A DNA stretch of 21,311 bases from a virus, in the IMG/VR virus record IMGVR_UViG_3300021963_000763, positions 1 through 21,311 of that record; one strand, given 5' to 3'. Each line of letters opens with the position of its first letter. The first letter of the stretch is position 1. Positions 12,405-15,531 of the stretch are shown here, in pieces. The notes under the pieces were generated by a model. It made no database searches, had not been told where the DNA came from, and was given only the letters and a program-made list of their open reading frames with translations. Both the position numbers and the translations under genes were made by a program.

Positions 12405-12428
12405 CCGATAGCGCGAGGCAACACAGGA

Positions 12429-12462
12429 GGTCGGTCCCTACGGGGACCGGCCTTCTTTTTTT
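12429..12462 (+). terminator. Intrinsic terminator of the late operon (UACG loop)
   Basis: GGTCGGTCCC (12429-12438) pairs with GGGACCGGCC (12443-12452), nine Watson-Crick pairs plus one G-U. The loop TACG closed by C-G is of the very stable UNCG class. TTCTTTTTTT follows. No T-run exists on the opposite strand, so it acts mainly on plus-strand transcription from the lysis genes. Confidence 0.9.
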
Positions 12463-12470
12463 ATGCCGTT

Positions 12471-12770
12471 TTATTCTTTGTCTGCAGGGCAGGGAACTGT
12501 CACGATATTGCCACAGTTAACACAGGTAGCATCAAGGAAGTACCAGACCAGCTCGTAGTCATCAAAGGAGCACATAACGCTGAAGACCTGAGACCCACAC
12601 GGACAGACGTGGATCGGGCCAAAGGCCCTTAAATCGCTGCCAAAAGGCTCAGGAAGGGTATCGTGGCTGCGTCGTAATGATTGCAGGGTGAGTAGACGGA
12701 GCAGGCGGTAGGCTGTACCGTTGCTACTGCGACCCTTGAGGGGTCGCCGGTCCTGTTTAATTCGCCTCAC
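12471..12770 (-). CDS. Small four-cysteine zinc-motif protein, minus strand
   Basis: 99 residues if the GTG complementary to 12768-12770 is used. The last 50 residues are well organised: FGPIHVCPCGSQVF (C56, C58), VMCSFDDYELVWYFLDATC (C83) and VNCGN (C86). The paired cysteines and the DYELVWYFLD strand look like a zinc-ribbon, of a kind I recall in actinophages. The first 40 residues are Arg-rich and less protein-like, so the real start could be nearer; no ATG, GTG or TTG occurs in frame inside. It stands alone, convergent with the late operon and divergent from the hydrolase gene. No ribosome site is visible upstream of the GTG. Function unknown. Confidence 0.6.
   Translation of the reverse strand: MRRIKQDRRPLKGRSSNGTAYRLLRLLTLQSLRRSHDTLPEPFGSDLRAFGPIHVCPCGSQVFSVMCSFDDYELVWYFLDATCVNCGNIVTVPCPADKE
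12729..12747. other. Perfect 7-bp stem hairpin near the 5' end of the minus-strand gene
   Basis: GCGACCC (12729-12735) and GGGTCGC (12741-12747) form a perfect inverted repeat with a five-base loop. There is no T-run on either side, so it is not a terminator. On the minus strand it would fold about 25 bases after the proposed GTG and could modulate translation or message stability. Confidence 0.4.
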
Positions 12771-12777
12771 GGCTCAT

Positions 12778-12783
12778 ATTGTA
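12778..12783 (-). promoter_or_regulatory. Candidate -10 element for the minus-strand gene
   Basis: The minus strand reads TACAAT, one base from TATAAT, ending seven bases before the proposed GTG at 12770. That places +1 at or next to the start codon, a leaderless arrangement. The expected -35 position falls inside the palindrome and does not match TTGACA. No ribosome site is present. Confidence 0.45.
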
Positions 12784-12796
12784 GTCCGACAGGTAG

Positions 12797-12814
12797 GTGT
12801 CGCAGGTGCGACAC
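12797..12814. promoter_or_regulatory. Perfect 18-bp palindrome, candidate operator/activator site
   Basis: GTGTCGCA (12797-12804), GG, TGCGACAC (12807-12814): both 8-base arms match without mismatch. The centre (12805.5) is about 35 bases from the start codons of both divergent genes (12770 minus, 12840 plus). This looks like a dimer-binding site controlling both promoters. No second copy was found by eye in the window. A regulator candidate is the ribbon-helix-helix protein or WhiB further downstream. Confidence 0.6.
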
Positions 12815-12827
12815 ACCGTTGTAATGA

Positions 12828-12833
12828 TAGGAT
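12828..12833 (+). promoter_or_regulatory. Candidate -10 element for the early operon
   Basis: TAGGAT ends six bases before ATG 12840, so +1 would coincide with the start codon. The same bases contain AGGA, seven bases from the ATG, which could instead be a short ribosome site. The matching -35 position lies in the palindrome and is not TTGACA-like. Experimentally undecided. Confidence 0.4.
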
Positions 12834-12839
12834 GCAGCT

Positions 12840-13397
12840 ATGACAACTATCGCAGGTGTGCAAGGCATTGATTACGCTGTGCTAGTTGCAGACTCACAGA
12901 TCACCGAGGACAACTTAGTAACGCTAGCCGTTACTACACCCAAGATTGTAGAGGTAGGTAAGTTCCTCGTCGGTATCTCAGGTGACACCAGACCAGGTGA
13001 CATCCTTTCGTATAACTGGAAGCCACCTCTATATCGGGGCGAAGATCCTGTTCAGTTTATGGGAAAGAAAGTAATCCCAAGTATCAACGCAGTTTTTAAC
13101 GACAACAACTACGACTACAACAAGGTGGACAAAGATGGCGGTTTTGATTATCTCATTGCTTTTAACGGTAACATCTTTAGGGTTGCTTGTGATCTCTCTT
13201 TTTTCCAAAGCGATGTCGGAATTTACGGCATCGGTAGTGGTGGCCAGTTTGCTCTCGGCTACCTTTCTTCAATTGTCAAACCTGATATGGAGTTAGCCTA
13301 CGCAAAGAGACACGCCCGTAAAGCAGTTGATATAGCTTCGGTACTTGACGCCAATACTGGTAAGCCTTTACAGTTGGTAGTACAAGAACGGTTCTAG
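12840..13397 (+). CDS. HslV/proteasome beta-like N-terminal-nucleophile hydrolase
   Basis: 185 residues. The protein starts MTTIAGVQGIDYAVLVADSQ, very like HslV after Met removal (TTIVSV...GDGQ). Thr2 would be the exposed nucleophile without a propeptide; Asp18, Lys35 (the Lys33 counterpart with a one-residue shift), the GISGD turn (45-49) and GIGSGG (130-135, HslV/proteasome Ser125 region) complete the active site. The final helix KRHARKAVDIASVLD and the strand QLVVQE also fit. HslV is the peptidase of the HslVU protease; proteasome beta subunits share the fold. No HslU or other AAA unfoldase lies in the window, so it may use a host ATPase or act alone. First gene of the early operon. Family assignment by motif; activity inferred. 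Confidence 0.85.
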   Translation: MTTIAGVQGIDYAVLVADSQITEDNLVTLAVTTPKIVEVGKFLVGISGDTRPGDILSYNWKPPLYRGEDPVQFMGKKVIPSINAVFNDNNYDYNKVDKDGGFDYLIAFNGNIFRVACDLSFFQSDVGIYGIGSGGQFALGYLSSIVKPDMELAYAKRHARKAVDIASVLDANTGKPLQLVVQERF

Positions 13398-15267: not shown

Positions 15268-15531
15268 ATGCTACGGCGACCAGAACAATTTGAGTCGCCA
15301 AGTTGTGCAACAGTAGGTGGAGATTTCTGGTTTCCTGAGAAGGATGCCAGCAAGTATGAGAATCAGTTTGCTAAAACAATCTGTGCTTCTTGCCTCCACA
15401 AAAACGAATGCGCTGAGTGGGGTATCCAAAAAGAAAACTTTGGTATCTGGGGTGGGTTGTCAGATGTGGACCGCCGACTAATCAGACGCAAGCGTGGGAT
15501 CAGAGTTAATCAGGAGGAAGACGTTGCTTAA
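15268..15531 (+). CDS. WhiB-like Fe-S transcriptional regulator
   Basis: 87 residues from ATG 15268. The four WhiB cysteines are C13, C39, C42 and C48, in the C-x(n)-CxxC-x5-C layout, followed by GIWGG (59-63) and a basic C-terminal part RRLIRRKRGIRV. WhiB proteins hold a [4Fe-4S] cluster, bind the housekeeping sigma factor and change promoter choice; they exist only in actinobacteria and their phages. In phage TM4 a WhiB alters host WhiB2 function and superinfection. Here it lies between a replication protein and the helicase gene and is likely early. It supports an actinobacterial host. Confidence 0.9.
   Translation: MLRRPEQFESPSCATVGGDFWFPEKDASKYENQFAKTICASCLHKNECAEWGIQKENFGIWGGLSDVDRRLIRRKRGIRVNQEEDVA

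Follow-up and report, generated by a model that had tools for sequence, protein, structure and literature searches.

A conserved asymmetric GACAC site in the gap between lysis and replication modules of a tailed phage, a proposed divergent control region

What controls two phage genes that are transcribed away from each other and have only 69 nt between them? The question is raised by a virus record of 21,311 bases (the whole of which is referred to here as the window), in which a gene for an HslV/proteasome-like hydrolase and a gene for a small Cys-rich (zinc) protein diverge from such a gap. As the best explanation, it is proposed that divergent transcription is controlled from this gap, which separates the lysis module from the replication module of a tailed phage with freshwater actinobacteria as its probable hosts. 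The features on which the argument draws are listed below in the numbering of the window.

12471–12770, minus strand: gene for the small Cys-rich (zinc) protein; GTG at 12770–12768, in the loop of hairpin A
12729–12747, minus strand: hairpin B, G+C-rich, with compensating changes in relatives
12760–12777, minus strand: hairpin A, AT-GA-GCC-[GTGA]-GGC-GA-AT, with tandem G·A pairs; loop (12770–12767) at the predicted transcription start
12778–12783, minus strand: −10 element TACAAT of the zinc gene
12797–12814: perfect 8+2+8 palindrome GTGTCGCA-GG-TGCGACAC, centre 12805.5
12809–12818, plus strand: conserved asymmetric site CGACACACCG, consensus RCGACACGCCGT, with a WhiA-type GACAC core; in 138 of 139 relatives
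12825–12833, plus strand: extended −10 promoter TGA-TAGGAT, TG at 12825–12826; window sequence TGATAGGAT
12840–13397, plus strand: gene for the HslV/proteasome-like hydrolase; ATG at 12840, predicted leaderless start
15268–15531, plus strand: gene for a WhiB-like protein, the proposed co-regulator

In a preliminary description the gap had been read as a symmetric region, in which the palindrome replaces the −35 elements of two leaderless genes and is bound by one dimeric regulator. The positions given there were confirmed: the palindrome is exact, both start codons lie where they had been placed and the −10-like hexamers TAGGAT (12828–12833) and TACAAT (minus strand, 12783–12778) are 6 nt from the ATG and 7 nt from the GTG, respectively. 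A TTGACA-like −35 element is absent in both directions in the window, and none is conserved in relatives. A family search with the sequence of the zinc protein returned no named family, and its predicted structure has a mean pLDDT of 62.9. A hairpin followed by a T run, resembling an intrinsic terminator, is present at 12428–12466 (plus strand), 3′ of the lysis genes and adjoining the 3′ end of the zinc gene. An Rfam search of the gap gave four matches, all far under the gathering scores and located on or beside this plus-strand terminator, and these were rejected.

Relatives were gathered by three protein searches with the hydrolase (queries from the window, L147 and L087); the control region was not a selection criterion. 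The hydrolase start was found in 226 of the 231 loci obtained, 218 of which had at least 160 nt upstream, giving 149 distinct upstream regions with hydrolase identities to the window down to about 50%. Loci seeded by a motif were left out of the conservation counts. Hairpin A is present in 139 of the 149 regions, and counts of the site refer to these 139. Where it is missing, the zinc gene either begins as an ATG 5 nt after TATCAT (L036, L309, L315 and L331), which by its sequence would be another leaderless arrangement of this gene, or there is no recognisable promoter beside the matched start (L210, L215, L217, L250, L314 and L339), apparently since another gene sits in front. Small extra genes apparently lie between promoter and hydrolase in L084, L210, L215, L217, L229, L237, L244, L250, L314 and L339.

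A TANNNT hexamer ends 5–8 nt 5′ of the hydrolase start codon in 128 of the 149 regions, compared with 4–25 in control bins of equal width further upstream; the last two bins (53–60 nt), with 54 and 61, coincide with the minus promoter. TG is found at −15/−14 in 104 of the 128, and TGNTANNNT occurs 104 times at that place versus 0–7 times in the control bins. When representatives were taken at 70% identity, the −10 was present in 41 of 54. An extended −10 requires no −35, which explains the missing −35 element and leaves the palindrome without the role of a −35 substitute at the hydrolase. The AGGA before this gene was rejected as a Shine–Dalgarno sequence, as it overlaps the −10 and its bases vary in relatives. 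Shine–Dalgarno sequences were flagged in 15 of the 149 regions, none of which also has a −10 at the start (four of the 15, namely L210, L215, L229 and L244, are uninformative owing to a gene apparently inserted ahead); in L119 and L129 a −10 (TATACT) is located further upstream, ahead of an AGGAGG leader. Because the two kinds of start never coincide, the hydrolase mRNA is, as judged from sequence, most likely to be leaderless in the window. Extended −10 promoters of leaderless genes are known in actinobacteria. The hydrolase promoter resembles these in its TGnTANNNT element, the lack of a −35 and a start codon 6–7 nt after the −10, but differs from them in being coupled to a regulatory site and a divergent promoter.

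The palindrome consists of two opposed GACAC motifs (GTGTC at 12797–12801 and GACAC at 12810–12814, spacer 8). It is the sole 8+2+8 palindrome in the window, where 0.1 would be expected per dinucleotide shuffle; 8 bp arms with any gap of 0–12 occur three times window-wide against 4.3 expected, so that on this scale it is not exceptional. Within the 69 nt gap, a repeat with 8 bp arms (gap 0–12) was obtained in 12 of 2000 shuffles. In the relatives the right arm proves to belong to the site RCGACACGCCGT, which is found in the forward orientation in 116 of 139 and reversed in 22, with one consensus common to both; the lone exception, L269, has GACTC instead. GACACRC was the search string, and the independent evidence therefore lies in the flanking positions and in the presence of the site. 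GACAC alone is frequent, with 32 occurrences on both strands of the window. The promoter elements, the site, its freedom of orientation and its spacing rules can all be read directly from the relatives. In the forward class the site is 25–29 nt from the minus −10 (26 nt in 67 of 116) and its gap to the plus −10 is 5, 7 or 9–13; in 21 of the 22 reversed cases 39–41 nt separate it from the minus −10, and 18 of the 22 have a gap of 4 to the plus −10. The latter gap differs between the classes, so that the geometry at the hydrolase promoter is not fixed.

The left arm, GTGTC, accompanies the site in 99 of the 116 forward cases with spacers of 4 (32 cases), 7–8 (10), 9 (8) and 10–11 (49). Inverted repeats that include the GACAC core and have arms of at least 6 bp occur in 65 of the 116 forward-class relatives versus 2.2 expected with shuffled flanks, counts that raise the palindrome above chance; in the reversed class there are none (0 of 22), and for this class the palindrome was rejected as a conserved unit. 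The exact 8+2+8 form is shared by only five close relatives, whereas opposed half-sites recur in many. The second opposed half-site is thus real in many phages, with a spacing too free for one rigid dimer. What the relatives uphold of the preliminary description are the two divergent promoters, which have conserved −10 elements and lack −35 elements, the control site that they share and a hydrolase mRNA predicted to be leaderless. Its single rigid symmetric dimer site is contradicted by half-site spacings of 4–11, by the lack of the opposed partner in 17 of the 116 forward relatives, by the 22 reversed relatives without a repeat and by the asymmetry of the universal part, and its placing at −35 of both promoters by a location around −39 to −45 relative to the minus promoter.

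Which protein might bind there? A phage-encoded repressor or activator (the RHH protein also encoded in the window, or another DNA-binding protein) could occupy the opposed half-sites as a flexible dimer or as two dimers, in which case the gap would hold an ordinary operator without WhiA. The opposed half-sites in 99 forward relatives, the inverted repeats far above shuffles and the RHH gene itself are what such a regulator would predict, as against the spacing of 4–11 and the single sites of the reversed class, to which one rigid dimer is ill suited. The RHH protein was found in only four loci, whereas 46 of the 47 loci that extend 4.5 kb or more downstream contain WhiB, a weak comparison as the RHH gene lies beyond the end of most loci. 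The phage site also has about 11 conserved bases, compared with only GACAC in Streptomyces sites, and this conservation beyond GACAC would suit a regulator other than WhiA. A phage-encoded regulator of this kind is regarded as possible, but not as probable.

On the other side of the gap, a TANNNT of the TAYAAT kind stands ahead of the hairpin in 139 of the 149 regions, and neither a −35 nor an in-register TG is conserved among the relatives. Hairpin A follows this −10 directly and is laid out as an outer stem of 2–3 bp, GA, an inner stem of 2–3 bp, a loop, the inner strand, GA and the outer strand, with the loops GTGA (99 of 139), GTAA (20), GTA (9), GATA (8), GTTA (1), GAA (1) and ATA (1). 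The search fixed the GA, inner complement and GA and left the outer pairs free; both nearest outer pairs are Watson–Crick in 139 of 139, the first position being TA or CG and the second of all four types, with no G–U among 278 pairs. Nine stem states, all complementary, were counted among 48 representatives, which reflects fewer separate changes than the counts imply since related sequences are not independent. The motif has a single match in the window. That it might be a promoter element in general was rejected: a search of about 2.02 Mb, taken from loci that partly overlap, gave 344 matches, of which 335 follow a TANNNT and nine (four distinct contexts) do not. Two bacterial matches (Mesorhizobium and Saprospiraceae) were also discarded, with neither gene present there and a number estimated to be about that of chance.

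The zinc reading frame has an in-frame GTG at the expected start in 89 of the 139 relatives, 27 of which have no other start within 120 nt. In 46 of the 139 there is no start at the expected place, and 36 of these 46 have a Shine–Dalgarno start further down; the core of the zinc protein was out of reach in four of the 139. A leaderless GTG would consequently hold for the lineage of the window and not for the whole group.

Hairpins A and B might function as RNA, in a zinc mRNA whose longer leader begins upstream of 12783, with TAYAAT as a single-stranded RNA signal and the GTG presented in an mRNA loop. Most loops are of the GNRA type (GTGA and GTAA above), both hairpins show compensating changes and the folding energies are better for RNA than for DNA, although calculations on single hairpins did not decide between the two. 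Against an RNA leader, the TANNNT at a fixed distance from the GACAC site reads as a −10, the GTG is not preceded by a Shine–Dalgarno sequence, G–U is absent from the outer pairs and no other conserved −10 is found upstream. The RNA leader is considered unlikely. If transcription starts in the loop, half of the stem is not transcribed and the constraint would lie in the DNA. It is equally tentative to suppose that transcription from the zinc promoter begins within the loop of a mini-hairpin of the non-template DNA strand, with tandem sheared G·A pairs and a G-N-(N)-A loop. Such a hairpin would arise when the DNA is negatively supercoiled or melted, and would either replace a −35 or extended −10 by favouring opening or act as a supercoiling-sensitive block.

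There are partial precedents for structured promoter DNA. According to the available text of the source, the early promoters of N4 contain a small hairpin with a G…A loop closed by C–G that can extrude from supercoiled DNA (PMC4496689), and DNA hairpins of the GCGAAGC type are described as unusually stable (available part of PMC6582339). Hairpin A is like the hairpins of the N4 virion RNA polymerase promoters, as far as they are described in that text (PMC4496689), in its G…A loop, C–G closure and position at a promoter, but unlike them in having its loop at the predicted +1 instead of −11, mostly four-base loops and tandem G·A pairs. An N4-type hairpin promoter was rejected, as the hairpin is not centred at −11 and no virion RNA polymerase gene was seen in the window fragment, the longest open reading frame of which has 737 amino acids. 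A host-polymerase promoter with such a start-site hairpin was not found in the PMC open literature. A hairpin kept at a predicted start site by compensating changes poses the puzzle of how promoter activity could be tied to the structure of a strand.

The site is not confined to this arrangement of genes. Phage E7 was isolated on 'Ca. Planktophila', and E7 and F5 are freshwater actinophages of about 39 kb that encode WhiB, sigma-70 and an HslV-like protein; WhiB-like genes occur in every member of their family (available text of PMC10202952). E7 holds GCGACACGCCGTAG, a 14-base match, in the equivalent place, the gap between its holin and replication genes. This gap (L355:31405–31711) is very A+T-rich, with TATATA runs, and contains the site as GACACGCCG; it is a possible replication origin. 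Unlike the window, E7 has neither a divergent zinc gene nor hairpin A at the gap. A homologue of the zinc protein (43% over the core) is encoded elsewhere (L355:37433–37606, minus strand), near the WhiB gene.

The control region in the window might likewise be mainly a replication origin, with its promoter and hairpins serving primer synthesis or initiator binding. The replication module does begin here, close to the minimum of the cumulative GC skew, and the A+T-rich gap of E7 is in the equivalent place; iterons and an A+T-rich stretch are, however, lacking in the window gap, and the −10 elements and start codons fit promoters. An origin as the main function is judged improbable.

The favoured candidate is WhiA. 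The best matches of the phage WhiB are the chains 8dy7_H (1.4e-11) and 8dy9_H (4e-11), both named Transcriptional regulator WhiB, which we take to be Streptomyces WhiB from a WhiA/WhiB polymerase complex; matches to WhiB1 (1.7e-6 and 2e-6) and WhiB7 (3.6e-5) followed. Going by the best match, the phage protein would be closest to Streptomyces WhiB, the partner of WhiA. A search of the window record for a WhiA helix–turn–helix domain gave none (0 of 1). WhiA sites lie upstream of the −35 region, a placing that agrees with the minus promoter (−39 to −45) and disagrees with the plus promoter. In Streptomyces, WhiA binds a short asymmetric GACAC as a monomer in either orientation, either activates or represses and requires WhiB in vivo (available text of PMC3781837 and PMC6282962). 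The phage site is like the WhiA/WhiB promoters described in the parts available of these papers and of PMC4850268 in its asymmetric GACAC core, its occurrence in both orientations and the WhiB encoded nearby; it is unlike Streptomyces WhiA sites in being viral, in its longer conserved flank (GCCG) and in its often opposed two copies.

A WhiA/WhiB-type switch, in which WhiA of the host binds the GACAC site together with the WhiB of the phage, is given an even chance. We infer this binder and this partner because of the WhiA-like features of the site, the match of the phage WhiB, its presence in nearly all sufficiently long loci (46 of 47), the recurrence of the site with WhiB and the site in E7. 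Rightward, the extended −10 promoter would yield the leaderless hydrolase mRNA; leftward, a −10 without a −35 or an extended −10 would drive the zinc gene. Host WhiA and the WhiB of the phage would together bind the asymmetric GACAC(G/A)CC site, which often has an opposed second copy. As a product of the rightward operon, this WhiB would assist the leftward promoter, the site being just upstream of the would-be −35, and would hinder the rightward promoter, where the site is inside the spacer region and within the polymerase footprint; the sign of regulation is taken from these positions relative to each promoter. The outcome would be that the phage switches from one programme to another. With a GACAC site conserved at a divergent phage promoter, there is a concrete target at which a phage WhiB may borrow host WhiA to time phage genes, and it offers one lead on the so far unclear use of WhiB-like genes in freshwater actinobacterial phages.

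Newly fetched loci were scanned for the site plus an extended −10 regardless of genes. The combination was found before the hydrolase in 67 cases of the forward and 39 of the reversed pattern. A further 16 loci of the forward pattern had no match to the hydrolase, and 14 of them keep the zinc gene. The 33 reversed-pattern loci that are not before a hydrolase comprise 12 from a second phage group, one contig ending before the hydrolase and about 20 chance or coding-like matches. WhiB was found in six of the 12 loci of the second group, several of the others being short, and both WhiB and a sigma factor were found in several contigs. The site here is 1 base from, or adjoins, the TG of the extended −10, which is not an activator position. 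In L439 and L494 the promoter is directed back to the lysis genes. In these two contigs (L494:8892–9000, plus strand, and 6284–6390 of L439 as turned) the site and extended −10 are followed by a hairpin with a GTAA or GAAA loop and then by further structure and six T in a row, the structure downstream of the promoter being a candidate small RNA.
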